NCBI GenBank assembly: GCA_023664365.1
Contig: JAMPFR010000032.1
Span: forward strand, 1-37,454
Source: Acetatifactor muris
GTDB lineage: Bacteria; Bacillota; Clostridia; Lachnospirales; Lachnospiraceae
Length of the DNA stretch: 37,454 bases
Direction of reading: 5' to 3'
Positions 1,575 through 29,011 of this stretch are shown piece after piece; within the stretch, counting starts at the first letter, position 1; each line of letters opens with the position of its first letter. Position numbers and translations under genes: made by a program. The notes under the pieces are model-generated. The model was not told where the DNA came from, made no database searches, and was given only the letters and a program-made list of their open reading frames with translations.

Positions 1575-1589
1575 AACCAACATACCTCC

Positions 1590-4962: not shown

Positions 4963-4971
4963 TAGAAAGGA

Positions 4972-5217: not shown

Positions 5218-5222
5218 CTGCA

Positions 5223-5268: not shown

Positions 5269-5283
5269 CATTTCTCTATTCTC

Positions 5284-5463
5284 TTAAGCATCCATCTTTG
5301 CTCCCATAATAATAAGACCGATAGTATGTAGCATCATTTCTATATACCTCATGTTGCCCCGCTTCATAAAACCGGCGCTCTTGTCAGTCAACACACCCTG
5401 CTGCATTCGCCAATTTGCCCACGCCAACCATAAGTTTGCCTTAAGCATAGCCACTTGACTCAT
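5284..5463 (-). CDS. Small hypothetical ORF directly downstream of the type III Res gene
   Basis: ATG at 5463-5461 lies 3 bases after the TGA of the Res gene, and the frame runs 59 residues to TAA at 5286-5284. The product (starts MSQVAMLKANLWLAWANW, ends IGLIIMGAKMDA) is rich in Met and Trp and has a hydrophobic stretch near its end. There is no ribosome site, so expression would depend on coupling to Res. No family is recognised. It is either a small cistron at the tail of the type III operon or a fragment left by an older gene. Confidence 0.35.
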   Translation of the reverse strand: MSQVAMLKANLWLAWANWRMQQGVLTDKSAGFMKRGNMRYIEMMLHTIGLIIMGAKMDA

Positions 5464-5466
5464 TGT

Positions 5467-8577: not shown

Positions 8578-8588
8578 AGACGCCTCCC

Positions 8589-10439: not shown

Positions 10440-10473
10440 AGCATTCTCCTGCTTATGTGTTCCTTCTTTTACA

Positions 10474-10977
10474 TCAATCGAATATCTCCGATGAATACAC
10501 CCCCAGGCGCAAGGCGTCTGCCACCATTTCTTTAAAGGAATCCACATCTTTAAAGCTATAGATTTTAAATTTGTCCGTATACCTGATCGTTCCGTCTTCT
10601 TTCTGTGCCGAGTCTGTTTTTAACGCCCTGTTTTCCCTTGCCTCTTCCAGCCAGTCTGCATGCCATCCCACCGCTATTCCTGTTTCCGTAGAATCACACT
10701 GCAGCGCAATTTGTATAGAACGCTTCTTCAATTTTCTCTCATACTGTCCCAGACTGTCAAAAGCCAATTTGCAATTTGCAAAGTATCTGTCCCGGTATTC
10801 CCAGTCATACCCGATAGAACGGTTTGTTCTTACGTCGATAAAAATACCGTCGTTGTCATAGGTTTCTTCCTCATTCGGCCTCATTTCAATGTTTTCACAT
10901 ACGGGACTGCTGTTAAACAATTGTACGAAATTCAACATTGTTTCGTCGTGCTTTTTATACATGGATGGTCTGTACAT
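10474..10977 (-). CDS. Unknown 167-residue protein leading the type III restriction operon
   Basis: First gene of the operon, with AGGAGG 7 bases before the ATG at 10977 and the next gene, mod, starting 34 bases after its stop. It is soluble and charged, with no signal or membrane segment. Landmarks are GIFIDVRTNRSIGYDWEYRDRYF at about residues 45-67 (an alternating strand-like segment dense in acidic and basic residues), a Cys at about 94 and HADWLEEAREN at about 105-115. Acidic plus basic residues on a predicted strand could be a nuclease-like core, but no complete motif is visible and I do not recognise a family. Its tight link to mod and res suggests a role in the same defence locus: control, target discrimination or self-protection. 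Confidence 0.7.
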   Translation of the reverse strand: MYRPSMYKKHDETMLNFVQLFNSSPVCENIEMRPNEEETYDNDGIFIDVRTNRSIGYDWEYRDRYFANCKLAFDSLGQYERKLKKRSIQIALQCDSTETGIAVGWHADWLEEARENRALKTDSAQKEDGTIRYTDKFKIYSFKDVDSFKEMVADALRLGVYSSEIFD

Positions 10978-11045: not shown

Positions 11046-12398
11046 TTATAATTCCCGCATTCTGTATTCTTTGTCCTCATCCATCATCGCCAGCATGACG
11101 TCGGCGCACCGGGGATCAAACTGTGTGCCTCTTCCCTTCACAAGCTCTGCGCGGACCACCTCCTGGGGCAGGACGTCACAGTAGCTTCTCTTGGACGTCA
11201 TGGCGTCGTAGGCGTCCGCCACGCCAATGATTCTTGCCACAAAGGGTATGTTTTCACCCGTCAGTCCGTCGGGATAGCCGGAGCCGTCATACTTCTCATG
11301 ATGGGACCTGGCCCCTTCCGAGATATTGGGAATCTCCGATATGGTATTCAGAATATCCACGCCTATCACCGGATGCTTCTGGATAGTACGGTATTCTTCC
11401 TCCGTAAGCTTACCGGTTTTATTTATAATGGTATCCGGTATTCCGATTTTCCCGATATCATGAAGCAACCCCATCCAGTAAATCTCCTGCTGCTCCTGCA
11501 GGGACAGATTTAACCGCTCGGCTATCTTGCGGGAATAATCCGCAACCCGTTCCGAATGTCCTTTGGTGTACCTGTCCTTGGCGTCGATGGTTTTTGCAAG
11601 CGTCAGTATCACCTGCTGCGACAGCCGTTCTACCTTCTTTCTCCTCTCCTCCGCCGCCTCTGTCTGCCTTGCCACCTCCTGCTGCAGGCTTTGCCGAAGA
11701 GCGTTCAGCTCTGCAAGTGTTTTCGTCAGCATCTGATAATCCGGCGTTTCCATGGCAAACAGAATAATCACGGAAGCAATGGAACAGGTAAATACCGACA
11801 GCAGAACGTCAGGGAACCACAGCATCTGAAGCAGCGGCCCAATCATAGCCAGGATGATGTAAGCGCCGATGGAATAAAGCTGTTTTTTCCCGAACAGCTT
11901 CCGGTTTTTAAACAGCACACAGGCCGCACAGCAGATATAATACAGCGGCACAAGATATACCAGCACATACAGATTTCCATGTATGTATTCTCCGCTTTCG
12001 TTAAAGCCGAAGATGTACCCGGTAAACATGTTCAGACACAGCAGTATTAACTGCATAAACAGCAGTATCCTGTTGAACGACCAGGTTTTCTTTTTGTCTT
12101 CCTCCCGGCATACATAGCTCTCCACATATTGCAGAAACGTAAATGCCAGACAAAAGGATGACATAAAATAGGCCGTATTCGCCGCCACATTCAGGGCAAC
12201 GGGAATCTCACTTCCGTAGCTGATGGTAACGGCGGTTACAACATCCATAAACTCCGTCAGAATCAGAAATCTCTCTAATCCCTTGAATTTCTGATACACT
12301 TTTGTTTCATTGGAATAATACAGACAAAAATGAATGTACAGCACCACGTTAAACAGCAGTCCGGCCACTTCAAAGTCAATATTGTAAATAAGCTCCAT
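11046..12398 (-). CDS. Membrane HD-GYP protein, probable cyclic-di-GMP phosphodiesterase
   Basis: Likely hydrolyses the second messenger c-di-GMP at the inner face of the membrane. Residues 10-215 hold about six to seven hydrophobic segments, a sensor-like membrane domain. Residues about 222-268 form a coiled-coil linker. The HD-GYP domain follows with HSERVADYSRKIAE (281-294), the metal site HDIGK (313-317) and HHEKYDGSGYP (366-376), all catalytic landmarks intact. The ATG at 12398 follows GGAGG at 7 bases, and the gap after the cardiolipin synthase gene is 36 bases, so they probably share a transcript. The sensed signal is unknown. Some HD-GYP proteins act on other cyclic dinucleotides, so substrate identity is by family only. 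Confidence 0.88.
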   Translation of the reverse strand: MELIYNIDFEVAGLLFNVVLYIHFCLYYSNETKVYQKFKGLERFLILTEFMDVVTAVTISYGSEIPVALNVAANTAYFMSSFCLAFTFLQYVESYVCREEDKKKTWSFNRILLFMQLILLCLNMFTGYIFGFNESGEYIHGNLYVLVYLVPLYYICCAACVLFKNRKLFGKKQLYSIGAYIILAMIGPLLQMLWFPDVLLSVFTCSIASVIILFAMETPDYQMLTKTLAELNALRQSLQQEVARQTEAAEERRKKVERLSQQVILTLAKTIDAKDRYTKGHSERVADYSRKIAERLNLSLQEQQEIYWMGLLHDIGKIGIPDTIINKTGKLTEEEYRTIQKHPVIGVDILNTISEIPNISEGARSHHEKYDGSGYPDGLTGENIPFVARIIGVADAYDAMTSKRSYCDVLPQEVVRAELVKGRGTQFDPRCADVMLAMMDEDKEYRMREL

Positions 12399-14167: not shown

Positions 14168-16843
14168 TCAACTGTTCTCGTCTACATAATTCTGCACTCT
14201 TCTCTGAATGACGTCTGCCACATCTGCCGCAGGCTTCTGGCCTGAGAAATAACCCTCAATCTCCTCGGTAATGATGTTCATAACCTCCTCATTATAGTAA
14301 TAAGGATTGTGTACGGATTCTATAAAGGCAATAAGATCATCCAACTGCTCCTGGGTCAGGGGAGCATAGGGAACTGCCTCCCCGTTGATCCAGATGTTCA
14401 TATCTTCTTCCTCCTCATGAGTCACTCCGTTTTCATCCTCCCACGTCCAGGTGCGGCGCTTCGTAGCCTCCTCTGACTTCTCCAGGAATATATCCTTTCT
14501 GACCGGGAAAAAACTGATATTTTCCTTCTGATGGTCCTCTGTCAGATAATACCGCATGAAATTCCATGCCTCATCCAGATATTTTGACTTGGCGGACAGC
14601 GCATAAGTCACACTGCTCATGACATAGGAGCCGTTGCCGTTATCCGTAGGGAATCCCACATAACTGACTTCTTCGCCCATCTGGCCGTTTATGGTATAAG
14701 CAAGATTGTCAAATCTCCAGAAGTTAGCCTGCATCAGCAGCGTCCTGTTCTGCCGGTACTGTGATTCATAGTTGTTCCAATAATCCTCCCAGTACTCCTC
14801 ATCATAGCTGCTGTCGCCCTCCTCTCCGGGAAGCGTCTTGGCATACTCCATCATGGAAATAAAGTCTTCTGTATTAAAGGCACATTTTCCGGTAGATACA
14901 TCCACAAACTGGTTGCCGCAGTACCGCATCACCATATCAATAAACATGGAACGGGTGGTTTCCCCGTTAAACGCCTTGGTCTCTCCTCCCATGCCCGCCA
15001 GCACCTGCTGCATGTCTTCCATGGTCCAGCTCTCCCTGTCACCTACCAGAGATTTCTTTGCAATCACGGTATAAATCTCAAAATCAGGAACAATGGAATA
15101 CAGCTTTCCGTTTACGCGGTAAGCGTCAAATGCGTTCTGCATAAATTCCACCTGAGACAATTCCTCATCATTCGCAAGCAGCTTGTCAATATCGGCTATC
15201 AGCCCCTTGGAAATATAGTTGTTCAGAGGCAGATTGTTATAACCGTTGTTTATCAGAATATCCGGCATTCCCCCTGAAATAATATCGTTGTTCAACTGGG
15301 TCAGGCCTGCGGTATAGTCGTCATAGCTGTTATAGGAATTATATTCCTTTATGACAATTCGGTACTCAGGATTGTTCCTGTTATATTCGATCACCCGCTT
15401 TTTCAGGCTGGAATCCACATAGAAACCGCCCAGCACCAGCACCTTTTTATCCTGAATATCCTCAGGAGCCACATGGGTAAAAACACCTGCCTTGACGCCG
15501 GACTCCCAGTCCTCCCGGTAAAAGCCCAGGAAGGAATCCTTGCTCAACTCCACAATATTATACATCTGTTCGATATACAGGTCGGAATTGGTCCAGTTCA
15601 CCATGAGGCGTCCTGCCTCATCTCCCTGATCCCAGCAGTAGATACCGCCGTTCCCTGTGTAAACCAAATCATGGGAAATACCCGGCATCATCACATTGTA
15701 ATCATAGGTGTAATTAACCGAAGAGGGAAAATCCTGCTTCTCGCTTTTCAGAGTATCAGCCGCCACATCATAGACAGCATAATACCTTTTAGTCCAGTCA
15801 TCTTCGTCCCGGAAGATAATAAAGGCCGTTCCATCTCCCTGCGGGACAATCTGGTCACTGTTGGAAATGACCTCCAGACTTTCGTCGGAAACCTTTTTCC
15901 GCTCGCCCACGCTGCCGTCCATTCCCACTCTCACCCTGTAATAATCCGTCCGGGTATAATCCTCGTTATTCTCTGTCAGCATCAGGTACAACGCATCGTC
16001 CGCCCCCTCCATCATTTGATTGATCCAGGTGCGGTCATTCAACTCTCCGATGCTGATGTCCCAGAGTATCTTTCCTTCGGAATCCCAACTGCATATACTG
16101 CTTTCCACCTTGCTTACATAATTTTCAGGGTCTGAGTTGTCCTCGATACGATGATTCTTCATGGCATATACGACTCCGTCGCCCGTCATGGAAAATTCGG
16201 AATAATTCGTATACTCCCAAATATTATTGCTTACATAGTCTGTGTCTATGTCCACATCTATCCCGTAATCCTCGTCCGGCACAGCCTCCTCGGAGCCTTC
16301 TCCGCCTTCTGTCCCGTCGCCTTCCGTACCTTCTCCGCCTTCCGGTTCCGCCGCGTCTGCGCCTTCTCCGCCTTCCGGCTCCGCCGCATCTGCGCCTTCC
16401 CCGCCCTCCGGCTCTTCCGCGTCCGCGCCTTCTGTCCCTTCACCTTCCGGCTCTTCCGGATACGCCACAGGCGCATCCACCGGCGTATCTCCTTCCGCCT
16501 CCCCGCCGCTGAACTCCGGAATTTCCAGGCTTATCACCTTCAAATCACTGCCGTCCTCATTCATGGTAATCAGGCGGTAATCATACTCGTTGTAATTGTT
16601 CCAGTCTCTCACATTGACCAGCAGATTCACCTTTCCGTCCCTGTGGGCAGAGGCCAGTACGCTCATATCGCCGTTGCCCGGATTATACAATTCCGGCAGT
16701 TCAATCTCTTTCAGTCTGTACACGTTCTCCTTTGCCAGATTGGGATCCGCTTCGCTGGTTCCCCCGCCGCAGGCACACAGACCCGCAGTCAGTGCAAATG
16801 CAAGTCCAAAGCTCAAAGCTTTGCTTACAAATCCCTTTTTCAT
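14168..16843 (-). CDS. Lipoprotein with N-terminal propeller-like region and C-terminal family-1 solute-binding domain (SBP2)
   Basis: Last gene of the six-gene operon, 891 residues, against roughly 400-550 for ordinary sugar-binding proteins. Signal peptide 1-24 ends in a lipobox with Cys at 25 (LCAC), so it should be anchored outside the membrane. Residues about 40-110 and 200-455 are beta-rich with repeated strand patterns, such as GDGVVYAMKN and GNGGIYCWD, suggesting a propeller-like fold. Residues 113-192 are a Glu/Gly/Ala low-complexity insert. From about 466 a solute-binding domain begins (VLVLGGFYVDSSLKKRVIEYN), with IKEYNSYNSYDDYTAGL and DILINNGYNNLPL typical of the extracellular sugar-binding family. 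The gene starts 2 bases after the stop of the MacB-core gene, with a distant AAAGGATGG, so coupling is likely. The ligand is unknown. Confidence 0.85.
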   Translation of the reverse strand: MKKGFVSKALSFGLAFALTAGLCACGGGTSEADPNLAKENVYRLKEIELPELYNPGNGDMSVLASAHRDGKVNLLVNVRDWNNYNEYDYRLITMNEDGSDLKVISLEIPEFSGGEAEGDTPVDAPVAYPEEPEGEGTEGADAEEPEGGEGADAAEPEGGEGADAAEPEGGEGTEGDGTEGGEGSEEAVPDEDYGIDVDIDTDYVSNNIWEYTNYSEFSMTGDGVVYAMKNHRIEDNSDPENYVSKVESSICSWDSEGKILWDISIGELNDRTWINQMMEGADDALYLMLTENNEDYTRTDYYRVRVGMDGSVGERKKVSDESLEVISNSDQIVPQGDGTAFIIFRDEDDWTKRYYAVYDVAADTLKSEKQDFPSSVNYTYDYNVMMPGISHDLVYTGNGGIYCWDQGDEAGRLMVNWTNSDLYIEQMYNIVELSKDSFLGFYREDWESGVKAGVFTHVAPEDIQDKKVLVLGGFYVDSSLKKRVIEYNRNNPEYRIVIKEYNSYNSYDDYTAGLTQLNNDIISGGMPDILINNGYNNLPLNNYISKGLIADIDKLLANDEELSQVEFMQNAFDAYRVNGKLYSIVPDFEIYTVIAKKSLVGDRESWTMEDMQQVLAGMGGETKAFNGETTRSMFIDMVMRYCGNQFVDVSTGKCAFNTEDFISMMEYAKTLPGEEGDSSYDEEYWEDYWNNYESQYRQNRTLLMQANFWRFDNLAYTINGQMGEEVSYVGFPTDNGNGSYVMSSVTYALSAKSKYLDEAWNFMRYYLTEDHQKENISFFPVRKDIFLEKSEEATKRRTWTWEDENGVTHEEEEDMNIWINGEAVPYAPLTQEQLDDLIAFIESVHNPYYYNEEVMNIITEEIEGYFSGQKPAADVADVIQRRVQNYVDENS
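16268..16507 (-). repeat. In-frame tandem repeat coding an acidic Glu/Gly tract in SBP2
   Basis: Codes residues 113-192. Its core is about three copies of a 33-base unit (11 residues of the type AEPEGGEGADA; roughly 16319-16417), flanked by degenerate EGTEG-type units. Unit length is a multiple of three, so copy changes would keep the frame. It would place a flexible, strongly negative linker within the beta-rich region outside the cell. Confidence 0.8.
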
Positions 16844-16845
16844 AA

Positions 16846-18063
16846 TTATATTCCATCCTTTCGCTCTGTTTTCTCTTTCCTGCCGAGCTTCTTCGGCTCT
16901 TTCGGTTTTTTCGGCTCTTTCGGCTTCTTCAGCTCTCTCGGCTTCTTCGGCTTCTTCGGCTTTTCTTCCTGCCCGCCTGTACTACTGCCTTTGCAGCTTT
17001 CCTGCCGCCTATCCTTAGCTGCCAGACGCTTTGCCCGCAGCTTCTCTCCCAGGCGCTCCGCCTTATCCTTCAGGCGCAGCCATACATCTTTAAGAGTCCA
17101 GCCCTTATGCTTCCACCAGATACCGAAGAATACAATGGCCAGTACCACCGCATACAATAAAAACAACAGCTCCAGCAGTGTGAGCGCCGCCAGAATATCC
17201 TCATAGCCCCTGGCAATATTCTCCCAATAGGGGTAAATGATTGCCCTGCCGTTCATGGATCTGGTTCCGAACGCAGGAATCAGCTTCAGCCTGGACAGGA
17301 AAGAATAGCGGGATGTGTTTTCCAGCACCTCCGTCTCCTTCTCCGAGGTTCCAAGCTTTTCCCTGATGAGTTTCTCGGCAAAGCCCGTGACCGGATTCGG
17401 CATTACGATTTCATAATGGTTAATGCCGTTGCAGCTTCCAAGCGTATTCAGGGTCTGATAGGAAACATAGACCAGGGTGCTGTCCAGTCCCGCAGCCTTC
17501 TCCAGTCTTCCCTCAGGCCGCTGCACCACTCCTATGACAATATGGGGAACACCGCCGATGGACACCGTCATGCCTGCCACATTGTTGGAGCCGAACAACT
17601 GCCAGGCCGCATCCTGATCGATAATGCAGTAATCCTGCATCAGATCATTCCCCGAAAAGTACGAACCGGAAAGCAGCTTCAGCGGATGAAACAGAAAAAA
17701 GTCTCCGCCGATACCGATAGCATCCGCCTCCAGCGAAGCCCTGTCGGTGGACAGCATGACCTGTCCGTCCGCACTGTAGGCATCCGCCCACAGCCTTGCA
17801 CCGGGATTCTCCGATTCCTGTACCACGGAAGCGTCTGTCAGCGCCCCGTCGATGGAATGCTCAAACTCTATTATTCTGTCCTCTGTGATTCCGGAATTCA
17901 CCGAAAAGAAGCAGCTGACCTGCGCCACATCCTTCTCATCGCTCCACCGCTCCGCCATGGCCTGGGCGTCTTGGGTCCCGCCCAGCCGATGCGTCACAAA
18001 AAGCAGAATCAGAAAGAACAGGAAGGAAACTCCTCCGCTGATTTTTAATACTGATTTCTTCAT
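16846..18063 (-). CDS. MacB-like periplasmic-core protein with only two membrane segments and a basic repeat tail
   Basis: From the ATG at 18063 it has 405 residues. A TTG 21 bases upstream would add seven, but GAGG lies 6 bases before the ATG. It has one N-terminal membrane segment (about residues 8-22), then an extracytoplasmic domain with MacB-core features: GGDFFLFHPLKLLSGSYF, QDYCIIDQDAAWQLFGS and VSIGGVPHIVIGVV. A second hydrophobic segment follows at about 290-318, then a cytoplasmic tail of Lys/Pro/Glu repeats. MacB/FtsX permeases normally have four membrane segments, with three after the core, and many carry an ATPase. Here those are missing, so it is a truncated or specialised partner. 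It lies between the HlyD-type adaptor (6 bases from the TTG) and SBP2 (2 bases). It might be a scaffold linking the adaptor to other membrane parts. Confidence 0.75.
   Translation of the reverse strand: MKKSVLKISGGVSFLFFLILLFVTHRLGGTQDAQAMAERWSDEKDVAQVSCFFSVNSGITEDRIIEFEHSIDGALTDASVVQESENPGARLWADAYSADGQVMLSTDRASLEADAIGIGGDFFLFHPLKLLSGSYFSGNDLMQDYCIIDQDAAWQLFGSNNVAGMTVSIGGVPHIVIGVVQRPEGRLEKAAGLDSTLVYVSYQTLNTLGSCNGINHYEIVMPNPVTGFAEKLIREKLGTSEKETEVLENTSRYSFLSRLKLIPAFGTRSMNGRAIIYPYWENIARGYEDILAALTLLELLFLLYAVVLAIVFFGIWWKHKGWTLKDVWLRLKDKAERLGEKLRAKRLAAKDRRQESCKGSSTGGQEEKPKKPKKPRELKKPKEPKKPKEPKKLGRKEKTERKDGI
16888..16970 (-). repeat. 9-base in-frame repeat coding a Lys-Pro-Lys/Glu-Pro-Lys tail
   Basis: The 3' coding end of the MacB-core gene is a run of near-identical 9-base units on the plus strand of the type TTCGGCTTC. 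They code triplets such as KPK and EPK (KKPKEPKKPKEPKK). The tail is strongly basic and by topology should be in the cytoplasm. It may vary in copy number between strains. Confidence 0.75.
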
Positions 18064-18090
18064 TGCCCGCCTCGTTTCCTTCAAGATTAA

Positions 18091-19650
18091 TTAATCCGGC
18101 ATTCTCACCTGGCTGCCGGCCTCCACAGGCTTGTTGGATGTGGTAATTACATATTCATAACCGTTCAGTCCCGCGCTGATGGCAGACTGTGTGTCATCAC
18201 TGGCCAGCACCTCCACATCCACCCGGGTGGCAATATGCCGGACGCCCAGAGGAGCGGACTTATCTTCCACAATCAGGATAAACTTGCCGTTGCTGTCCTC
18301 CCGAATGGAATTATTGGGAACAATCAAATCATAGCTGGCGCTCTTCTGCCCCACGGAAATGCTGAAGGTCTGTCCCGCGGTGACGTTGCCCGTCACATTA
18401 AAGATCAGCTCCTTCTTCTGCCCCGGGTCTGACTTGTCAGGCTTGATGCTCGCCAGCGTCACTTCCACGTCGTCATACCGCCAGGCGTTTACCAGATCCG
18501 CCCGGTCTCCCACGGAAAGACGCTTTGCCTGTTCGTTGGTAACGGAAAAGCTTAAGGTATAGCCTGCTCCTTCGGGCTGCAGCACTGCCACGGGTGCAGA
18601 CGTGGAGGTGGTGTTTCCCGCCGTCACATTAATCTGGGTAACCGTACCTGCAATATCCGCCGTGATAACCGCGTCATAGGACTTGGCGCTCAGTTCATCC
18701 ACCAGCTTCTGGGCGTCCGCTATCGCTTCCAGCTTCTGCTCCAGATCGACGACTCTGCCGATATTTTCCACCAGCTTCGCCAAATCCGCCTGCTTTGCGT
18801 CCCAATCCTCCTGGGCCGCTGTCACCGCCTTCTGCTTCTCCGTCACTGCATCCTGGGCCGCCTTCAGATCCCGTTCAGCTATATATTGCTGAAGCACCAA
18901 ACTATTTATTGTGGATTCCAGACCTGCGACAGTTTTGTCTCTATTAGCGCTCTCAGCCAGCGCGGCTTCATACTCGGGCGTCGCATCTCCGCCGGATACG
19001 GGTTTCAGGCGATCTGCCTCCGCATCTGCCTCCGCCTTCTTGGCCTTTTCATAATTGACCTGGGCATTGTGATTCGCAATATCCAGAACAATCTTGTCCA
19101 GCTGCTGCTGATAGGGGATAACCGCAGCCTCCGCTGCCTTTACTGCATCCACAGCCGCGTCATATGCCTTCTCCGCCTTCTGCACCGCCGCCTGGGCGTT
19201 TGATATCTGCTGACGATAAACATCCGCGGATACGGCCTCATTTGCGGAATAAATATTGGAGGAAGAAATTTCGGCTGTCAGCACCGCAAGATCATATGCG
19301 TCCTGGGCGGCCTCCAGCTCCTTCTTTGCATTCTTCAGCTCATCGCTCTCGGAATCCTCCAGATAAAAGAGCACATCTCCCTTCTGTACCGCCTGTCCCT
19401 CGCTCACCGCCACACCGGACACCTTTCTGGACTCAGTGACCTTCACCTCGTAAGGGTCGCCGCTCATCACCGTTCCGGTGCCTCTGATCTTCGCCGTGAT
19501 GGTACCGGATTGAACATAACTGGTGGCCACCTCCGGCAGGGAGTAGTTCATTATGCTCTGGGAGAAAAATGTCAGCACAAGCATCACCGACAAAAATATA
19601 ATTGCCGCCGTTTTCACCCATTCCCTTTTGTTCTTTCCGTTCTCTTTCAT
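18091..19650 (-). CDS. HlyD/MacA-type membrane-fusion adaptor protein
   Basis: A 519-residue adaptor of the type that bridges an inner-membrane exporter to the outside. It has one N-terminal membrane segment (about 12-30), a first lipoyl half (VSGVAVSEGQAVQKGDVLFYLED, about 77-99) and a long Ala/Glu/Lys coiled coil (about 100-325). A second lipoyl half (YDAVITADIAGTVTQINVTAGN) and beta-barrel segments follow. The hairpin is long for the family. The start at 19650 has a purine-rich GGAGAGGGAAAGG just upstream. It lies 92 bases after the MalG-type permease, an interval with a hairpin, and just before the MacB-core gene. MacA-MacB pairing is the known precedent, but here the partner lacks the ATPase and most membrane segments. 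Confidence 0.85.
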   Translation of the reverse strand: MKENGKNKREWVKTAAIIFLSVMLVLTFFSQSIMNYSLPEVATSYVQSGTITAKIRGTGTVMSGDPYEVKVTESRKVSGVAVSEGQAVQKGDVLFYLEDSESDELKNAKKELEAAQDAYDLAVLTAEISSSNIYSANEAVSADVYRQQISNAQAAVQKAEKAYDAAVDAVKAAEAAVIPYQQQLDKIVLDIANHNAQVNYEKAKKAEADAEADRLKPVSGGDATPEYEAALAESANRDKTVAGLESTINSLVLQQYIAERDLKAAQDAVTEKQKAVTAAQEDWDAKQADLAKLVENIGRVVDLEQKLEAIADAQKLVDELSAKSYDAVITADIAGTVTQINVTAGNTTSTSAPVAVLQPEGAGYTLSFSVTNEQAKRLSVGDRADLVNAWRYDDVEVTLASIKPDKSDPGQKKELIFNVTGNVTAGQTFSISVGQKSASYDLIVPNNSIREDSNGKFILIVEDKSAPLGVRHIATRVDVEVLASDDTQSAISAGLNGYEYVITTSNKPVEAGSQVRMPD

Positions 19651-19693
19651 TTCCTTTCCCTCTCCTACATAATTGTTGATATATGTGTAACCA

Positions 19694-19729
19694 TTCAGCC
19701 ACTGCCGCCGTCACGCCGGCCGGGCTGAA
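19694..19729. repeat. Intercistronic GC-rich inverted repeat between permease and adaptor genes
   Basis: TTCAGCC (19694-19700) and GGCTGAA (19723-19729) are perfect arms around a 22-base GC-rich loop that can fold further (GCCG...CGGC). There is no T-run. In the transcript it sits between the permease stop (19743) and the adaptor start (19650). It could be an RNA processing or stability element giving different levels of the two halves of the operon. Confidence 0.5.
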
Positions 19730-19742
19730 CTGATGCATATAA

Positions 19743-20717
19743 CTACCCTTTGATACCGCCCTGATAGGTGATGCCGTTTACCAGATAATCCTCCCCGTAC
19801 AGGAAAATCAGCAGGCTGGGCACCATGTAAATCGTTGCCACTGCAAAGGCCAGCCCTATCTCCCCTGCGTTAATCTTGCTTAAGAAGACGGACAGGGGAT
19901 GCTTTTCCGCATCCGACAGCAGAATCAACGGCTGCTCCACCATGTTCCAGTAGTCGATGAACACCAGGATCGCCGCGGAGCAGATAGCCCCCTTGCAGAG
20001 CGGCATACAGATTTTTTTGTATATCTGCCATTCTCCTGCCCCGTCTATCTGCGCCGCCTCCACCACGGAGGTGGGGATACGCCGCATGAACTTTGTCAGC
20101 AGAAACACCGTAAAGGGTGAAAAAATACCCGGCAGCCAGATAGCCCAGTTTGTATCCAGCAGGTTCAGCCAGTCGCTGACAAGATAGTTGGGCACCAGCG
20201 TTACCTGATAGGGCATCTGCATCAGTATGATATAGGCAAAGAAGATAATCTCCCTGATTCTGCCCCGGTACCTGGCAAAGCCGTAGGAGGCAAGGGACGC
20301 CACCAGCAGCTGAAATACCACAATGGGGCCCACCAGAGCCACCGAATTCCAAAACTTGAGCAGATACTCCGGGCTTTTAAAGAGCACCGTAATATACTGA
20401 CTGAAGGAAACCATATCCGGAATAAATTTCAGGTTCACCTTCTCGGATATGTAAACCTTTCCTCCGTTGCTGTTGATCGCAAAAACCGTACCGTAGTTGG
20501 AGGAAATTTCCGACGCGCTCATAAAGGAATTGGTAATAGTCAGCACGATGGGCGCCAGGAACAGAATTGCGAAAAAAGCCGCCACAATGGTAGCCAGCGC
20601 AAGCCTGGAAACGGCAAAAACCTTCTTCCTCCGGGGAACGCCCGGCTTCCCGGAAGCACCCCTCTCTGTTGGAACGCCCTCTGTTCCGGGAACGCCCCCC
20701 ATTCCCTTTGCTCTCAT
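19743..20717 (-). CDS. Carbohydrate-type ABC transporter permease, MalG-like
   Basis: A 324-residue inner-membrane permease with six predicted membrane segments after a cytoplasmic N-tail. The EAA loop is canonical, EAAQIDGAGEWQIYKKICMP at about 220-240, the site where an ABC ATPase docks. Residues 1-33 form an unusual Gly/Pro-rich extension (GVPGTEGVP, GASGKPGVP). The ATG overlaps the stop of the MalF-like gene (ATGA), so translation is coupled. It should pair with that protein to form the channel. No ATPase gene is in the operon; a shared MsmX-type ATPase elsewhere is the usual solution in Firmicutes. Confidence 0.9.
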   Translation of the reverse strand: MRAKGMGGVPGTEGVPTERGASGKPGVPRRKKVFAVSRLALATIVAAFFAILFLAPIVLTITNSFMSASEISSNYGTVFAINSNGGKVYISEKVNLKFIPDMVSFSQYITVLFKSPEYLLKFWNSVALVGPIVVFQLLVASLASYGFARYRGRIREIIFFAYIILMQMPYQVTLVPNYLVSDWLNLLDTNWAIWLPGIFSPFTVFLLTKFMRRIPTSVVEAAQIDGAGEWQIYKKICMPLCKGAICSAAILVFIDYWNMVEQPLILLSDAEKHPLSVFLSKINAGEIGLAFAVATIYMVPSLLIFLYGEDYLVNGITYQGGIKG

Positions 20718-21715
20718 CCTTCCACATCCTTTCCGAACCGATCCTCCACAATAAACAGCAGACCGATAATTACAATCATGACAAGGCTCATCAGAATGGC
20801 CGCCGCAGACAGAGTCTGATAATCCAGATTCCGGAATTTATTATTCATAAAATGCTGCAGCATATATACCGTATCCGTAGGATAATCTCCCGTAAGCAGG
20901 TACACCTCCCGGAAAATCTTAAAGGAGCTGATAAGCGACATGATTGTCACAAATAACAGCGTGGAAGACAGATACCTGATTTTTATATGGAAAAAAGTCT
21001 GGAAGGGCGTTGCGCTCTCCAGCGTAGCCACCTCCAGAATATCCTTGGGGATACTGGCAAGGGCCGCCATAAACAAAATCATATTGTAGCCCAGATTCTT
21101 CCACAGGAAGAGAATAGCCACCACCACCAGCGCGTACTTTGACTTCATCCAGTCGATTTTGTCCACGCCGAAATGCCCCAGCAGCTCATTCACCGCTCCG
21201 TTGTAATGAAACAGCACCTGCCAGATCAGCACAATGGACGCCACCGGCACCATCATGGGACTCAGGAAAAAGGTTCTGAACTGACTTTTAAAAGGTATCT
21301 TAGACTCCAGCACAATAGCCAGAATCAGGGACAGCACCACTGCCAGGGGTACCGACACCAGCGAAAACATAAAGGTATTGCGCACTGCCCTCTGAAACGC
21401 GGGGTTTGCCACAATACTTTTAAAATTATCCAGAAACACAAAGTTGGCGCTGACCGGATTATCCACCATGGAATACCAGATGATTACAATAAAAGGCAGA
21501 ATAAAGAACAGCAGAACGCCAATCAGGCTGGGGGCAATAAATGCCCCCGAGCTCATTTTCAGTTTTCTGGTTCTCCGCGTAGTCTTAATATGCTGCTTCT
21601 CCGGTTTTGCAGCCATTCTCTTCTTTTTACTTTTCTTTGCCGCCTGTTCCATTATCACAGCCTGTGTGGAAGCAGCGCTTATTTTACTTTCTTTCCTGCT
21701 TACTTTCCTGCTCAC
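20714..21715 (-). CDS. Carbohydrate-type ABC transporter permease, MalF-like
   Basis: A 333-residue inner-membrane permease with six hydrophobic segments from about residue 55. The first 54 residues are a very basic tail (KKSKKKRMAAKPEKQH). The ATPase-docking loop is present but degenerate: EVATLESATPFQTFFHI has ESA where DGA is usual. That hints at altered coupling or a particular ATPase partner. It starts 20 bases after SBP1 and overlaps the MalG-like gene by four bases. Substrate is not predictable; sugars or oligosaccharides are the family norm. Confidence 0.9.
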   Translation of the reverse strand: MSRKVSRKESKISAASTQAVIMEQAAKKSKKKRMAAKPEKQHIKTTRRTRKLKMSSGAFIAPSLIGVLLFFILPFIVIIWYSMVDNPVSANFVFLDNFKSIVANPAFQRAVRNTFMFSLVSVPLAVVLSLILAIVLESKIPFKSQFRTFFLSPMMVPVASIVLIWQVLFHYNGAVNELLGHFGVDKIDWMKSKYALVVVAILFLWKNLGYNMILFMAALASIPKDILEVATLESATPFQTFFHIKIRYLSSTLLFVTIMSLISSFKIFREVYLLTGDYPTDTVYMLQHFMNNKFRNLDYQTLSAAAILMSLVMIVIIGLLFIVEDRFGKDVEG

Positions 21716-21735
21716 TTTACATCCCTCTGACCTGT

Positions 21736-24009
21736 TCAGCTGTTCTCTCCTACATACATGGACGCCCGGCTCTGGATAGTGCTTACCACCTCGTCAAGGC
21801 TCTTCTGTCCCTGATAAAAGGCCTCCGCCTCCTCCGAAATAATTGCCAGAATCTGGCTGTTGCCTGCAGGCATGGGCTTTGCCACGTCTATCAGCTCCCG
21901 CAGGACAGCCATCTCCTCCTCCGTGCAGGCCACACAGTCGTAACTCCAGTCGCTTCCGTAGCTGTAACCGTGGTTTGAAGCCTCAATCGGATTACCGTTC
22001 TCATCCTTCATAATCTCGCCGTTTTCATCCCACCTGTAATTGGGTGTGCAGGCTTCCTTGATTTCCTCCTCCAGCTTTTCCTGCCTGCTGGGGAATCCCC
22101 AGGAGAACATCTGGGTATCTCTGTTTAAATAAAACTCAATAAACTCCCAGGCGGCGTCCTTATACTTGGATTTGTCGATAATACAGTAGCCTCCGTTACA
22201 TCGCATGACACAGCCCACGCTGCCGTCCGTGGTAGGAAACCCGACATAGGTCACCGGCTCGTTAAACATGGCAGACGTAACCTGAATATCATAATAGTTC
22301 GAAACGGAATCCTGCATAAGCAGCAGCTTGCCCGAGGCCAGCCTTACAGGCGCGGATTCCTGATCCTCACTCCAGTCAAATTCCGAAGGGAAGCCCGCCA
22401 CGAACTCCAGCATCTGCCGGAACTCCTCCGAATCAAAATTGCAGGTGCCCTTCTCCCAGTCGATGAAGCTGTCCTGATTAAATGTCATCAGGATCCGCAT
22501 CATTTCAGCCTTGTTGGCATACTCAAACAGATCCGCATCCGGGTTTGCTTTGGAAAGCTCCATAATATCCCGGATGGACCAGCCCATCTTATCTCCCACC
22601 TGAGAGGTTTTTCCCGCCACCGTGCTGATGGTAAAGTTCCTTGGAATACTGACCAGTATATCTCCGTAAGTATTGCCTCTCAATACGCTGTCGATAAAGG
22701 CGTCCCGGCTTACGGCGCTGCTGTTGTCCAGATACGGGTTCAAATCCGCCAGGATTCCCTTCTCCGCCAACAGCCCCACGTCAATATTGTCGCTGCTGTC
22801 AAGGGCCAGGAGATCCAGCCCGCTGCCGGAAACCAGTTCATTGTTCAGATTGGTAACGGCGTCACTATAATCCATGTCGCTGTATGAGTCGTAATATTCC
22901 TTAATGGTGACATGATATTTTTCATTTGACTTATTAAAGGCCACTACCGTGGAGCGAAGCTCCTGGCTCATGGACAGGGTTCCCACCACCAGTTCTTCCT
23001 TCTTCGCTACCTGGGAAGCCTTTGTCTTTGTAAAAAGAGCAATCTCCGTGTCGCCGCTCTCCCAGTCCCGGATAACCGCCATCAGCCTACCGTCACCCGC
23101 AGGACATACCAGCTGCACATAGTCGCCGTTGATATCACAGTCCAGCCAGTTCAGCAGCTCCTCCTGGGTGCCGCTCTCCGTGTCATATTCGTAGAGCCTG
23201 ACTCTGTCGTTTATCAGGAAATCCTTCTCCAGGCCCTCCGACAGGCTGTCCACATCCGCCTGTATGGTATAGGGGTCGCCCAGCTTTTTCCCGTCGAAGT
23301 CAATCTCCGCAGCCACATAGCCGTCTCCGGTGTTCCAGTCATTGTAAGCCACATAGACCCTGCCGTTCTTTCCCCGAACCGCGCCGCTGAGCCAGTAGTC
23401 CCCGATCTCCACATTCCCCCGGTAGGCGCCCTCGCTGTCATAGAGACGGATAATGCTGTCTGATACCAGATAAATCCTGCCTTCTCCGTCCACTATCATA
23501 TTCTGTATGTAGGTGTTATTGTCATCGGAGTTCATCTCCTTGGTGATATCCAACAGGAATACATTGCTGCCTGTGGTATCATACTTTGACAGCAGCGTAT
23601 CCCGGTGCCAGTTGTCCGGATTGTTCTCGTCCCAGAAGCTGCGGGCCAGGACAAGATACAGATTGCCGTCCCCGTCCACTACCATGTCCTGAATGTAGGT
23701 ATCCTGGGCGTCGTCCCCCATATCCACCTTCATCTCCTGCAGTTCACCCGTTTCAATGTCATATTGAAACAGGGGATAACTGGAGGTGCCGGTTTCCTCG
23801 TCATAAACGTAACTGCTGAAGTACAGCTTTCCGTCCGCGCAAGCCATATCGGACATCTGCATATTTTCCTCTCCTATGGAAATATACTCCGGCACATAGA
23901 CGAAACGGTCTCCCGCGGCCTTCCCGTCGTCCCCGTCGCAGGCCGCCAGGGAAAGGGCTGTAAGCGCAGCCAGTCCCGCCGTCAGTATCCTTTTGAAACC
24001 TTTTTTCAT
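21736..24009 (-). CDS. Lipoprotein with N-terminal beta-propeller-like repeats and C-terminal solute-binding domain (SBP1)
   Basis: First gene of the six-gene operon, 757 residues from the ATG at 24009 (GGGAG 5 bases upstream; a GTG at 24015 would add two). The signal peptide ends in LAAC, so it is a lipoprotein. Residues about 40-330 contain repeated strands with a DG-x-G-x-x-Y pattern (VVDGDGNLYLV, IVDGEGRIYLV, VRGKNGRVYVAY), as in NHL or other beta-propellers. From about 340 the solute-binding domain follows (VVGTLSMSQELRSTVVAFNKS, IKEYYDSYSDMDYSDAV, DLLALDSSDNI). It shares this two-part design and several motifs with SBP2 at the other end of the operon, so the two are probably ancient duplicates. 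Ligand unknown; the propeller could bind a surface polymer or partner. Confidence 0.87.
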   Translation of the reverse strand: MKKGFKRILTAGLAALTALSLAACDGDDGKAAGDRFVYVPEYISIGEENMQMSDMACADGKLYFSSYVYDEETGTSSYPLFQYDIETGELQEMKVDMGDDAQDTYIQDMVVDGDGNLYLVLARSFWDENNPDNWHRDTLLSKYDTTGSNVFLLDITKEMNSDDNNTYIQNMIVDGEGRIYLVSDSIIRLYDSEGAYRGNVEIGDYWLSGAVRGKNGRVYVAYNDWNTGDGYVAAEIDFDGKKLGDPYTIQADVDSLSEGLEKDFLINDRVRLYEYDTESGTQEELLNWLDCDINGDYVQLVCPAGDGRLMAVIRDWESGDTEIALFTKTKASQVAKKEELVVGTLSMSQELRSTVVAFNKSNEKYHVTIKEYYDSYSDMDYSDAVTNLNNELVSGSGLDLLALDSSDNIDVGLLAEKGILADLNPYLDNSSAVSRDAFIDSVLRGNTYGDILVSIPRNFTISTVAGKTSQVGDKMGWSIRDIMELSKANPDADLFEYANKAEMMRILMTFNQDSFIDWEKGTCNFDSEEFRQMLEFVAGFPSEFDWSEDQESAPVRLASGKLLLMQDSVSNYYDIQVTSAMFNEPVTYVGFPTTDGSVGCVMRCNGGYCIIDKSKYKDAAWEFIEFYLNRDTQMFSWGFPSRQEKLEEEIKEACTPNYRWDENGEIMKDENGNPIEASNHGYSYGSDWSYDCVACTEEEMAVLRELIDVAKPMPAGNSQILAIISEEAEAFYQGQKSLDEVVSTIQSRASMYVGENS

Positions 24010-24049
24010 AATCACTCCCGCATCACTCCTTTTCCCGGAATTTACAAAA

Positions 24050-24154: not shown

Positions 24155-24190
24155 AAAAACTGTTAAAAATGCAATAATTTTGTAACAGTT
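24155..24190 (-). terminator. Terminator of the ABC exporter/PHP operon
   Basis: Minus strand AACTGTTA, loop with inner pairing AAAAT/ATTTT, TAACAGTT, then TTTTT. The stem starts within the stop codon of the PHP gene (24189-24191). It is AT-rich but has about 13 pairs and separates that operon from the SBP1 promoter. Confidence 0.65.
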
Positions 24191-24980
24191 ACCTGAGCCG
24201 GATGTACATCCGCTTCAATTCCAGGCTCCGCCTGTGGTGCTTCCACATACTTCCCATATGATTATACAGCCAGAAGGAGTGTACCAGCACATCATTCAGC
24301 CGTCCGATTTTCTTCTTGGTGGTGTGCTGGTAATACTGCCCGCCGCAGGTGCAGGCGTCGAAGCCCTTCGCCTTCACCAGGGCAATCAGATCGGATTCCG
24401 AAGTCACCCTGCCTGCAAATTCCGTTGCGCCCAGACCGATACAGTCCAGCTTGTGGGCGTCGCTGCCGCCAAAGGCCGGCTTTCCGAACCGTGCGGCAAT
24501 CTCCCGGGCCTTCACATTACTCTCCGGTTCCTCGCAGGCGTTAAAGCCCTCGATAAAATCAAGCTGTTCCATGATTTCCGGCCGGTTCCGGTGTTTTCTG
24601 GTATTGAAAATGCTCATATATTTTACGCCGCAGGGATGGGCAGGCCCCAGGATACCGCCGTTTTTGTGGACTATCTTAATCAAAAACTGCAGCGGCAGTC
24701 CCCGCAGCTCCAGAATCGGCAGCTTTACCTCCTCCGGCATAATCACCAGAATGTGCCCCGCGTCAATGGTATCGTACTCAATACCCTTCAGCACCACAAA
24801 GTCCTGCTTCCGCCGGCACACCGGATTCCGCTTCCAGGCCCGGTATCCGTTGTAGGAATCATGATCGCTGATTAACATTCCGTCATAGCCCTTTTCTATC
24901 AGTATGTCAATAAATTCCTCTATGGGCACCTTCCCGTCCAGGGAGCCCTCCTTTGTATGACAGTGCATATCAAATTTCAT
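24189..24980 (-). CDS. PHP-domain metal-dependent phosphoesterase
   Basis: 263 residues from the ATG at 24980, chosen because AAGGAG lies 7 bases before it and the PHP motif starts at once. Metal-site residues are visible: H6-x-H8 (FDMHCHTKEGSLDG), D39-H40-D41 (ISDHDSYNGY), GPAHPCG in the middle and GSDAHK near residue 190. This is the YciV/TrpH-like layout, members of which act on nucleotides, sugar phosphates or RNA ends. The last 40 residues are basic. It starts 16 bases after the permease stop and before the terminator, so it is the third gene of that operon. Why a phosphoesterase is expressed with an exporter is not clear from sequence. Confidence 0.85.
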   Translation of the reverse strand: MKFDMHCHTKEGSLDGKVPIEEFIDILIEKGYDGMLISDHDSYNGYRAWKRNPVCRRKQDFVVLKGIEYDTIDAGHILVIMPEEVKLPILELRGLPLQFLIKIVHKNGGILGPAHPCGVKYMSIFNTRKHRNRPEIMEQLDFIEGFNACEEPESNVKAREIAARFGKPAFGGSDAHKLDCIGLGATEFAGRVTSESDLIALVKAKGFDACTCGGQYYQHTTKKKIGRLNDVLVHSFWLYNHMGSMWKHHRRSLELKRMYIRLR

Positions 24981-24996
24981 GCTTATACTCCTTCTT

Positions 24997-27900
24997 TCAG
25001 TCCACACTTTTAAGGGACTCCGTCATGCTGATTTCCTCCAGCTTGCGCCCCATAAACCTGTCCACCAGCCAGGCGAAGCCGAAGGTCAGCAGGGCGCTGT
25101 ACAGAAAGCTTACGGGCCGGACGTGTATGTCAAAGGCAATCATATCCACCTGTATCTGATTCATGACAAAGGCATGGAGAAAATGTCCCAGCACAAGCCC
25201 CGGCAGTATTGCCAGCACCGTCAGCAGAATATTTTCCCGGAACACATAGCTGGCGGTCTCCCGCTTATAAAACCCCAGCACCTTCACGGTGGCAATCTCC
25301 CTGACCCGCTCCGTAATATTGATATTCGTCAGGTTATACAGCACGATAAATGCCAGCCCTCCGGCGCAGAGAATCACCACCAGCACAATCAGGTCAAGAC
25401 TCTTCATCATGGCGCCGATGCGCTCCATGGTATCCGCGTTTACAGTGACGTTTACCACCTGATCCAGCTTCATCAGCGCCGCCGACATTTCATGCGCATC
25501 AGCGTCCTCCCCCAGGTTCAGCCAGATCGTCTTCCGCTCCGGCGCCTCCCCAAATGCCTGTATCCAGGTTTCCGGGCAGATATAGACATAATTATAGATA
25601 TAATTTTCCATAACCGCCGTAATGGTCACAGACAGGGTATTCATGTCCTCATCCCTCAAATATATCACATCTCCCGCCTGAATGCCATACTGTTTTGCAA
25701 GCTTGTGGGTGATGACGCCTTCCCCGAAGCCGGGATAGGAAACGGCCTGATGCCCTTCCGTGTGCATGTTCAGATATTCCCCCATCCGGGAAGGATCGCC
25801 TGCTGCCAGATAGATAGATTTTACCCCTTTATCGGTGACAATATCCATGCTTGTCTCCATAATGCCAAGCCAGCTGTCCAGTCCCGCAGCCTGCAGACGC
25901 TCCAGTTCCCGCTCCGTATCCTCATCCACAGCCGTCCGCAAGCTGACGCCAATGTCATAAATCTGTATCTCGCTGAACTGCTGAGCCGCCACATCCGCAA
26001 TGGAGTCCTGAATGCCGAAGCCTGTAACCAGCAGAGCCGTACAGCCGCTGATACCCAGCACCATCATAAACAGTCTTTTTTTATAGCGGAAAATATTTCT
26101 CACCGACACCTTTTTCAAAAAGCTTAAATGCTTCCACAACAGGGGAACCCGCTCCAAAAATACTCTTTTCCCCGCCTTTGGCGCTTTGGGCCGCATAAGC
26201 TGGGCCGCCACCTGGGCAAGCTCCACCCGGCAGGACAGCCATGTGGTTCCCACGGAGCACAGCAGGGCTACCGCCATGGAAATCACTGCCAGCTTCCAGT
26301 CAAATACATAGCTGAGAGGCGCCGCACTGTACATCAGTCCGTAGGCAAACCAGATGACCTTCGGGAATCCCCAGGTGCCCAGCAGGAATCCGCAGACACA
26401 CCCCAGAACCGCCGCCAGTCCCGAATATATCATATACTTTGACATAATGGTTCCTCTGCCGTAGCCCAGGGCCTTCAGCACCCCTATCTGGGTCCGCTGC
26501 TCCTCCACCATGCGGTTCATGGTGGTAATGCAGACCATGGCCGCCACCACAAAGAAAAAAACGGGAAAGATATTGGCGATTCCCTCCACTATGGAAGAAT
26601 CGCTTTCAAAACAGGCATACCCTATGTTGGTATCCCTGCCCAGCACATAGGAGTCCGGAAGCTCCAGGACGGCAAGCTCCTCCTCAGCCTCCGCCAGCGC
26701 AGTTTCCGCCTCCTCTGTTTTCTCATAAAATTCCTGCAGGGCTTCTTCGTACTCTTTCTCACCCTCCGCCAGTTCCTGCCTGGCGTCCGCCAGCTCCCCT
26801 TCCTTCTCCGCCAGGGCCGTCTCCGCTTCCGCAAGCTCTTTCTCTGCCTCCTGCAGCTGTACTTCCCCCTCTGCAATGGTTTTCTTCGCCTCTTCCAGTG
26901 CCTTCCTGCCATCTGCCAGCTGCTGCTCTGCCTCCTGCAGCTGCCGTTCGCCTTCAGCCAGTTCTTCTTCTCCCTGACGCAGCCGGCTTTCCGAAGCATC
27001 TATCTGTGCCCGGGCGGCATTCAGGCTTGCCCAGCCCTCGCTTATCTGCCGCCGGTAATCGGTTATCTGGGCCATGGCTGCAGCATAATCCGCTTCCGCA
27101 AGGAGTCCGGTCCGGTAGGCAAGCGCAAGCCTTGCAGCCTGGGTTTCCAGTTCCCCGCTGCGCATTTCCAGCTCCGCCACCCCGGAGGTCAGCTGCAGCT
27201 TTCCCAGCTCCAGCTCTGCTCGGCCGGCCTTCAGTCTGTCCCGGTTTTCCGCAAGCTCCGATTCTCCCTTAGCAAGCTCCTCCTCACCTCTTTCAAGCTC
27301 CCGCTCCTTCCGGGGCAGAGCTTCCTTTGCGTCCGCAAGCTGCTGCCGTTTCTCCTCCAGAGTCTTCCGACCCTCCTCCAGCTCCCGCCCTGCGTCTGCA
27401 AGGGCCGCCTCTCCGTCGGCAAGCTGCTGCCTTGCATCCTCAAGCTCCGCCGCAGCGTCGGCAAGCTCCGCTTCTCCCTCCGCCCGCTGTTCCGCCAGCT
27501 CTTTCTCACCGTCGGCGATCTCCTGCGCCCCTTTTGCCAGAACGGACTGATAACGCCTTTCCGCCTGCTGCTGCGCCAGTTCCTCCCAGATGCTTTTCTT
27601 TTCGTCAATGTAATTCCGGTAGCCCTCCCCGTAAAGAGGGTTGTCCTGGGCAAAGCGGACATAAATTTCCGTATAATAATCCAGCGCAAAGCCCTCCGGA
27701 AGCAGATAGACAAAGCCGTCTATCCGGCCTGTCCCCAGGGACGTGCTGCCCCGCTCAAACTGTATGTACAGAGGAGACTGCACCGTTCCCACCACGGTAT
27801 ATGCCCTGTGTGTAAAGCCCTCCAGAGTATCCTCCTCATTTTCCTCCGCAATATAAATAACGCTTCCTATGGCGGACTCGTCAAAGAAATCGCTGTCCAC

Positions 27901-28306: not shown

Positions 28307-29011
28307 CTACCACTCTATATTTTCCACATTCACAATATTCTCGTTCTTCACCATGCTCACCACGGTACCGCTCTTCACCGTGATAACTCTGTCCGCCATG
28401 GCCGTCAGCGCCTGATTGTGGGTAATCACTATCACCGTCTTCCCCATGTCCCGGCAGGTGCTCTGCAGCAGCTTCAGCACCGCCTTTCCCGTATTATAAT
28501 CCAGCGCGCCCGTAGGCTCGTCACAGAGCAGAAGCTTGGGATTCTTAGCCAGGGCTCTGGCGATTGCCACCCTCTGCTGCTCGCCCCCCGACAGCTGGGC
28601 CGGAAAATTCCCCATCCGCTCCGCCAACCCCACCTGGGACAGCACTACCGCCGCGTCCAGAGGCTCTCTGCATATCTGGGCCGCCAGCTCCACGTTTTCC
28701 AGCGCCGTCAGATTCTGCACCAGATTATAAAACTGGAACACAAATCCCACGTCATACCGTCTGTAACCGGTGAGCTGCTTCCTGTTAAAGGCGGAAATCT
28801 CCTGCCCGTCCAGACAGACCCTGCCCTCGGTCAGGGTGTCCATACCCCCGAGAATGTTCAGTATGGTGGTCTTCCCTGCGCCGGAGGCTCCCACAATGAC
28901 GCAGAATTCTCCCTTTTCCACCTCAAAGTTCACGTCATGGAGGGCCGTAATCTCCACCTCGCCGGACTGATATATTTTTTTGACATTTTCAAAGCTTACA
29001 AAGCTGCCCAT
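28307..29011 (-). CDS. ABC transporter ATP-binding protein, MacB/LolD family
   Basis: 234 residues, complete ATPase: Walker A GASGAGKT (41-48), signature LSGGEQQ (140-146), Walker B with [12 protein letters not shown] (160-171) and the switch His in [18 protein letters not shown] is typical of the MacB/LolD/FtsE group that drives FtsX-type permeases, so its partner is the next gene. The ATG at 29011 has GGAGG 5 bases upstream. An extended -10 at 29104-29112 precedes it. Confidence 0.94.

Follow-up and report, generated by a model that had tools for sequence, protein, structure and literature searches.

A six-gene operon on a contig of Acetatifactor muris (Lachnospiraceae; JAMPFR010000032.1, assembly GCA_023664365.1), whose entire 37,454-nucleotide length is referred to as the window, was analysed, and its products are best read as one ATP-binding cassette (ABC) importer whose outer face bears an exporter-type adaptor together with a MacB ectodomain that has no motor (probability roughly 0.6). 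The set comprises two solute-binding proteins (SBP1 and SBP2), a MalF-like and a MalG-like permease, an HlyD/MacA-type adaptor (HlyD) and a MacB core-domain protein (MacBc). The parts are known; their combination appears to be undescribed. Following up on an earlier prediction made from the DNA letters, open reading frames and Pfam matches placed all six genes at the positions claimed, in that order, tightly spaced and on the minus strand of the window.

21736-24015, minus strand: SBP1, a lipoprotein with an N-terminal propeller-like region and a C-terminal extracellular solute-binding domain (Pfam SBP_bac_8/SBP_bac_1 at residues 359-636); likely ATG at 24009
20714-21715, minus strand: MalF-like type I importer permease (BPD_transp_1, 57 bits) with the EAA loop LEVATLESA
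19743-20717, minus strand: MalG-like type I importer permease (BPD_transp_1, 53.5 bits) with an enlarged outer loop of 60 residues between transmembrane segments 1 and 2 (TM1-TM2)
18091-19650, minus strand: HlyD/MacA-type membrane-anchored adaptor (Pfam Biotin_lipoyl_2 and HlyD_3; PDB matches to HlyD, EmrA and MacA)
16846-18084, minus strand: MacBc, a MacB periplasmic core domain (MacB_PCD) between two membrane segments, with a lysine-rich C-terminal tail; probable ATG at 18063
14168-16843, minus strand: SBP2, the other SBP lipoprotein, with a long region at its N-terminus (SBP_bac_8, 65 bits at 509-789; SBP_bac_1 also matched)
14144-14115, minus strand: terminator-like hairpin with a T run, after SBP2
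about 24110-24102, minus strand: extended -10-like element TGTTATAAT upstream of SBP1, read by eye

The conservation of this arrangement was determined by a MacBc scan of GTDB species genomes, which yielded 67 loci, most of them titled Lachnospiraceae or Acetatifactor; all 67 were used, and a few titles (e.g., Muribaculum) are probably bin mislabels. Together with 16 further loci from whole genomes, 83 close loci were available, with a MacBc gene above 100 bits in 81 and with at least one duplicate (L027 = L125, 50234-nt contigs from two collections). MalF, MalG, HlyD and MacBc were found unbroken on one strand in 75 of the 76 close loci with at least three genes upstream, the sole exception being L007 (Acetatifactor muris DSM 23669), where HlyD is split over two frames in the assembly used. 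Named carriers of the set include Lachnospiraceae bacterium GAM79 (L060) and Bacterium D16-50 (L014). Confinement of the gene order to this strain had been named in the original prediction as the outcome that would speak against it; recurrence in dozens of genomes rules out a strain oddity and makes the finding exceed chance. In the 81 close loci assessed, MacBc was followed by an SBP gene (77 loci), by a MalK-type ATPase gene (two) or by a contig end (two). An SBP thus adjoins the core in 79 of 81 loci, following MacBc in 77 and preceding MalF in the two with MalK after MacBc. Immediately before MalF, an SBP1 was found in 59 close loci, an SBP2-scored SBP in one, another gene in 12 and a contig end in eight (L007 counted apart), so that the first SBP is usual, not universal. 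The number of SBP genes per locus ranged from one to four, and the predicted pair of SBPs therefore holds for the window and is not universal; tandem copies were seen for SBP1 (two in L003 and L123) and SBP2 (two in L114, three in L120). Mean pairwise identity was 0.78 for MalG, 0.72 for MalF, 0.53 for MacBc, 0.49 for HlyD, 0.41 for SBP1 and 0.39 for SBP2; as judged from these values, the core is conserved and the binding proteins are fast-evolving.

The permease of these sets (cassette MalG) is distinguished by its own signature. The TM1-TM2 outer loop measures 52-62 residues in 15 of 15 cassette MalG versus 39-42 residues in 8 of 8 ordinary MalG, the 15 and the 8 (out of 14 ordinary sequences) being hand-chosen. 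In a MalG tree of 56 rows, a single branch with 100/100 support, present in all 200 bootstrap trees, separated 38 cassette from 17 ordinary rows. For this tree, ordinary rows were cut to their last 300 residues, and L194 (590-aa frame), L158, L160, L184_second and the cassette rows L003, L005, L025, L052, L115 and L119 were left out. The remaining long, unlabelled row (L154, from contig C110 of the window genome) fell on the cassette side; in an earlier tree, where L154 (locus L218) was labelled ordinary, two label changes were needed, and one in 36% of the bootstraps. On that contig (L218:10073-11262), the window genome thus has another MalF-MalG pair, which is very divergent; the 147-aa frame after it matches HlyD weakly (38 bits) and gave no Pfam HlyD match.

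Pairwise distances of MalG correlated with those of HlyD (r = 0.94, n = 37) and of MacBc (r = 0.91, n = 33), values not reached in any of 1000 permutations; the correlations include shared species history, and L166 and L176, cut by contig ends, were left out. They imply that the adaptor has long travelled together with these permeases. HlyD was next to ordinary MalG in none of 13 readable control loci of the phylum sample (a fourteenth, L192, was cut by a contig end). Comparative genomics thus supports the predicted association of the permease pair with the adaptor pair.

Beyond the close relatives, divergent versions of the set were found in further families of the same order and in a different class of the phylum. 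A search of 246 genomes of the order with MacBc yielded strong matches in 16 (E < 1e-40) and weak ones in 33 more, and the MalG profile revealed a second tier of matches at about 186-303 bits in the same sample. Twenty second-tier loci were fetched, nine for a weak MacBc match nearby and eleven on MalG alone. HlyD followed MalG in all 20, and MacBc was then present in 15 of the 19 readable loci, including 6 of the 10 chosen on MalG alone. The divergent MacBc matches are weak: with independent profiles from which they had been excluded, 14 of the 15 scored 17-47 bits and L182 gave nothing. Later profiles were built partly from loci that they then scored, so that high scores with them arise partly by construction. 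Pfam MacB_PCD was matched in divergent L167 and L177. The notion that all weak MacBc matches are plain MacB exporters was rejected, as nine from the order sample have a cassette-type MalG at most 3 kb upstream of them and represent divergent sets. Other weak matches were ordinary MacB beside a LolD-type ATPase (L090 in the order sample; L093, L094, L097-L102 and L106-L109 in the phylum sample). A plasmid-borne named relative of MacBc was sought, and no match was found.

No ATPase is encoded among the six genes according to Pfam, as had been predicted. The most informative loci regarding its identity are those with a MalK-type gene directly after MacBc, of which 12 were found (L110, L111, L177, L203, L204, L232-L238); OB_MalK and TOBE_2 were confirmed in all five of these post-MacBc ATPases scanned with Pfam. 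In the class of genome G446, a cassette-type MalG is present in 12 of 113 genomes. Ten of these loci could be inspected (L203, L204, L231-L238), and a MalK-type gene comes next in all nine that extend past MacBc. The in-operon MalK is the only OB_MalK match of the genome in 9 of 12 cases (G207, G385, G395, G562, G573, G561, G568, G631, G556). Of the remainder, G446 has three OB_MalK matches and G045 two, and the in-operon ATPase of G563 is below the domain threshold. The set's MalG is likewise the only MalG match of G385 at E 1e-5; in G207 it is the only strong match, with one other at 6.7e-6. Among 15 genomes examined that have no in-operon MalK, 11 hold exactly one OB_MalK match, located elsewhere, and overall 43 of 45 set-bearing genomes tested contain an OB_MalK match.

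The window genome has 19 MalG-profile matches and four OB_MalK matches, three of them over the cut-off; one of the four is an MsmX-type ATPase encoded on contig C111 (458 bits to MsmX 6yir, 550 bits to 7x0q). The position of MalK after MacBc, its uniqueness in simple genomes and the MsmX-type gene in the window genome together indicate that the engine of the set is likely a MalK/MsmX-type ATPase, and the C111 protein would then serve the window set. The expectation of an ATPase encoded elsewhere is thereby supported for the window genome, where the likely partner is of the importer type and lies outside the operon.

The permeases matched UgpA/GlcT-like and GlcU/UgpE-like NCBIfam models, both under the equivalog cut-offs. 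The SBP part of SBP1 is closest to the cellodextrin-binding protein CbpC in a PDB profile search (E = 1e-27), and C26 is invariant across 29 aligned SBP1 sequences. Two propeller SBPs had been predicted; the propeller region gained sequence support for SBP1, whose profile positions about 183-236 match propeller structures. The adaptor scored 66 bits against RND_mfp, short of the 94.9 cut-off. In Pfam, MacBc matched MacB_PCD alone (41.9 bits, cut-off 27) and gave no FtsX match; among PDB structures, it matched MacB (E = 2e-8) and, weakly, YknZ (5f9q). A hydropathy scan revealed membrane-like segments of MacBc at residues 12-30 and 301-319, in line with the two that had been predicted; that these are the only ones is less certain, given a third hydropathy peak at 169-187 within the MacB_PCD match.

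The operon contains sequence features of a CUT1 importer, namely MalF/MalG-type permeases, EAA loops and an SBP, with the MalK-type ATPase outside the window operon. From the MacAB exporter it has the adaptor with lipoyl domain and helical hairpin; the four-segment FtsX membrane domain and the ATPase are absent from the six genes, and no TolC-like channel was found, the window genome giving no OEP (TolC-like outer channel) match.

MacBc was compared with its divergent counterparts and with ordinary MacB. Four membrane segments were seen in nine of the 14 divergent MacBc scanned, two of the 14 being incomplete; MacBc of the window type has two flanking segments. By hhalign, window MacBc is nearer to divergent MacBc (E = 1e-19) than to ordinary MacB (1e-12), and window and divergent MacBc both align to ordinary MacB over the core only, the match ending before the FtsX part. 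Segment counts and core-only alignment fit an origin of MacBc in which the MacB motor was lost step by step. In the window adaptor, the lipoyl halves are separated by about 231 residues (range 172-410 across 78 close relatives), corresponding by our estimate to roughly 17 nm for each arm if helical. For comparison, a study on a MacAB-like assembly of Streptococcus pneumoniae places the modelled apex about 154 Å above the membrane, which its authors consider comparable to the space below the wall (PMC5768738).

From these observations, the following mechanism is proposed. MalF and MalG would form an importer of type I (CUT1, maltose-type), with a MalK/MsmX-type ATPase as its engine; for the window set, this ATPase is most likely the gene product from contig C111. 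The two outer-face parts, a membrane-anchored HlyD/MacA adaptor and a MacB core protein without its FtsX motor, would derive from a MacAB exporter and most likely constitute a passive collar or tower on MalFG between the membrane and the cell wall. The propeller-SBP lipoproteins could dock on this tower and pass a captured oligosaccharide, possibly wall-derived, to the permease. The genetic linkage is strong, and the gene families, their order and co-inheritance, the ATPase linkage, the enlarged MalG outer loop and the absence of a motor domain from MacBc are observed; physical assembly, import direction, tower shape and cargo are all parts that we infer. A more far-reaching version, put forward only tentatively, is that of a new ABC importer class that employs an efflux-type adaptor tube for uptake, with adaptor and motorless MacB ectodomain forming a tower into the Gram-positive wall through which MalFG-MalK may draw down wall-derived glycan fragments.

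Several observations weigh against the one-importer interpretation. Conserved gene order shows shared function, not contact. A recognisable MacBc was not found in 4 of the 19 readable divergent loci (L175, L178, L184, L185) and is therefore not strictly needed for the class; in addition, the MacBc of L182 rests on a 25-bit match with a later profile only, and L174 and L182 are without Pfam MacB_PCD. OB_MalK was not matched in 2 of the 45 genomes, G237 (78% complete) and G563 (whose in-operon ATPase gave no match), and the four OB_MalK matches of the window genome mean that more than one ATPase partner is conceivable there. A single Lachnospiraceae genus differs in seven loci (L112, L114, L115, L116, L120, L121, L122), where the place of SBP1 directly upstream of MalF is taken by two same-strand genes, one for an ABC ATPase (about 300 aa) and one for a protein of about 730 aa; the two such ATPases tested (L112, L115) matched ABC_tran without OB_MalK in Pfam. 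Finally, no glycoside hydrolase was found among the recurrent neighbours tested at close loci, leaving sugar cargo weakly supported. The genomes of the said genus also carry an OB_MalK ATPase elsewhere, and in L117 another ABC ATPase and a BPD_transp_1 permease were found just upstream of SBP1.

Among the alternatives, the set might be a sensor, in which the SBPs bind a wall or glycan signal and report to two-component or BlaR1-type regulators, with the importer core acting as a transport-coupled sensor. Two-component genes do stand beside many divergent sets, an SBP of one divergent set (L167:7513-9759) is a fusion with the membrane domain of a BlaR1-type M56 peptidase, and a GntR-type gene recurs in eight close loci (Pfam-tested in L112 only). 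No two-component gene, however, directly adjoins the six window genes (an HD-GYP gene is located at 11046-12398), and regulators are often encoded next to importers, which does not by itself imply that the importer is a sensor; we regard a sensor as unlikely. L112, with a GntR regulator in addition to its upstream ABC ATPase, resembles a unit of the Ytr type.

Alternatively, the importer fold and MalK could be the motor of a mechanical or outward machine acting on MacBc and the adaptor, which would move or release something in the wall zone without any import. MacB relatives work by mechanotransmission according to a review (PMC5985334), genes with a wall-related function stand beside the set in one class, and no SBP was recognised beside the divergent set L179. 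Against this stand the SBP adjoining the set in nearly all close loci, with the only two others cut by contig ends, the EAA loop kept by MalG and the absence of the FtsX part from MacBc, all of which give a mechanical machine little credence.

The least probable alternative, two machines on one transcript with the adaptor pair serving the FtsX-ABC unit just upstream in the window or another ABC exporter, could draw on that unit and on the different ABC ATPase upstream of MalF in the seven loci of one genus, but is disfavoured by the MalK type of the ATPase right after MacBc in 12 of 12 loci, by the absence of HlyD from ordinary MalG loci, by the separate branch and loop of cassette MalG, and by the patchy occurrence of the upstream unit. 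The genes concerned, all preceding the operon on the same strand, are as follows.

24189-25007, minus strand: PHP-type metallohydrolase gene (CehA/McbA family, 70.9 bits, cut-off 80)
24997-28293, minus strand: large FtsX permease (FtsX and MacB_PCD by Pfam)
28307-29011, minus strand: LolD/MacB-type ABC ATPase of the upstream FtsX unit (ABC_tran, 119 bits)

Within three genes upstream, the PHP-type gene was found in 34 and the FtsX gene in 24 of 66 close loci, making each a frequent, not a constant, neighbour. The best NCBIfam matches of the upstream ABC ATPase were LolD, DevA, FtsE and MacB, under equivalog cut-offs. As the engine of the set, the FtsX/ABC unit was rejected, since FtsX was not seen near 42 of the 66 close loci (some cut by the fetched flank).

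Returning to the one-importer reading, a further proposal concerned its coupling. The original prediction had taken the ESA-for-DGA change in the EAA loop of MalF as a sign of unusual coupling. In the window clade, the MalF loop reads LEVAxLE or close (LEVAxLESA type), with S, N or K at the usual glycine. The glycine is kept in the divergent members shown as well as in L110, L111, L203 and L204, and MalG keeps DG in the rows shown. The change is thus lineage-specific, and a coupling mechanism based on it was rejected.

Adaptor proteins are understood as export parts, and in more than one class the set ties an adaptor and a motor-stripped MacB domain to an importer. Because some naturally simple genomes have no MalK other than that of the set, it is testable whether an importer uses a wall-spanning adaptor, and for what cargo. 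The wall link, if it holds, would be relevant to the recycling or sensing of the envelope by Gram-positive gut bacteria. The role of adaptors in bacteria without an outer membrane is posed as a question in a review (PMC5985334).

Three known systems share portions of the arrangement. MsmX-dependent CUT1 importers of Bacillus (PMC7658222) have the same SBP, MalF-like and MalG-like permeases and an MsmX/MalK-type ATPase often encoded elsewhere, to which the present set adds the HlyD adaptor, the MacB core-domain protein, a longer MalG outer loop and the N-terminal propeller-like region of SBP1. The MacAB-like pump Spr0693-0695 of S. pneumoniae (PMC5768738) likewise has, in a Gram-positive, an adaptor built of hairpin, lipoyl and barrel parts and a MacB-type extracellular domain; in contrast, the set is without MacB ATPase or FtsX motor, any ATPase that follows MacBc is MalK-type, and there are SBPs and importer permeases. 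The Bacillus system YknWXYZ (PMC4887032) also combines an adaptor with a MacB-like ectodomain in a Gram-positive, but is an exporter with its own MacB-type ATPase. In the open-access literature, no importer with such an adaptor was found among the matches listed; subscription papers were mostly outside the search.

A hint of a cell-wall role, from outside the window's own neighbourhood, comes from carboxypeptidase, two-component and BlaR1-type neighbours. A gene for a Peptidase_S11 protein (D-Ala-D-Ala carboxypeptidase) is located upstream of MalF in 9 of 10 loci of the G446 class (L203, L204, L231-L237; not in L238), directly upstream on the same strand in seven and about 2.3-2.5 kb away in L204 and L236. 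An OmpR-type two-component pair was also found at these loci (Pfam: the pair in L232, L233 and L234; the kinase only in L204). At close loci, the recurrent neighbours tested were mostly housekeeping genes; in one genus, a glucuronate isomerase gene and a LacI-type gene are nearby on the other strand, each in a five-locus cluster.

In another genus, a TolC-type gene follows MacBc (L166:6777-7895, L169:9909-10799, G027:C60:505-738 (L168/L215)), as if the tower had a TolC-like cap; PF02321 was matched with 39 bits in L169 and 29.6 bits in G027:C60, and the L166 gene is alike by eye, without a Pfam match.

Within the window operon, the genes are spaced by 20, -4, 92, 6 and 2 nt in transcription order; since longest-frame starts were used, some overlaps are effects of start choice. 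One promoter and one terminator had been predicted to delimit the operon. The terminator is supported by the hairpin at 14144-14115; the promoter is weaker, TGTTATAAT being absent from the promoters listed by a consensus scan of the window. No RNA families were found in the window at gathering thresholds. Across the 92-nt gap between MalG and HlyD (19651-19742, minus strand), the 100-nt stretch 19651-19750 gives a hairpin of -27.9 kcal/mol, more stable than its shuffles (z = -2.42) and perhaps a stoichiometry element.

Elsewhere in the window, restriction-modification-like genes occupy 684-10547 on the minus strand (GIY-YIG/DUF4357, an Eco57I-type methylase, a type III res subunit and an N6/N4 methylase). 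On the plus strand, 29184-32435 encodes a 1083-aa protein, whose first half matches GT87 and whose second half matches protein O-mannosyltransferase; in relatives, a gene of this type is often found divergently oriented beside the set.

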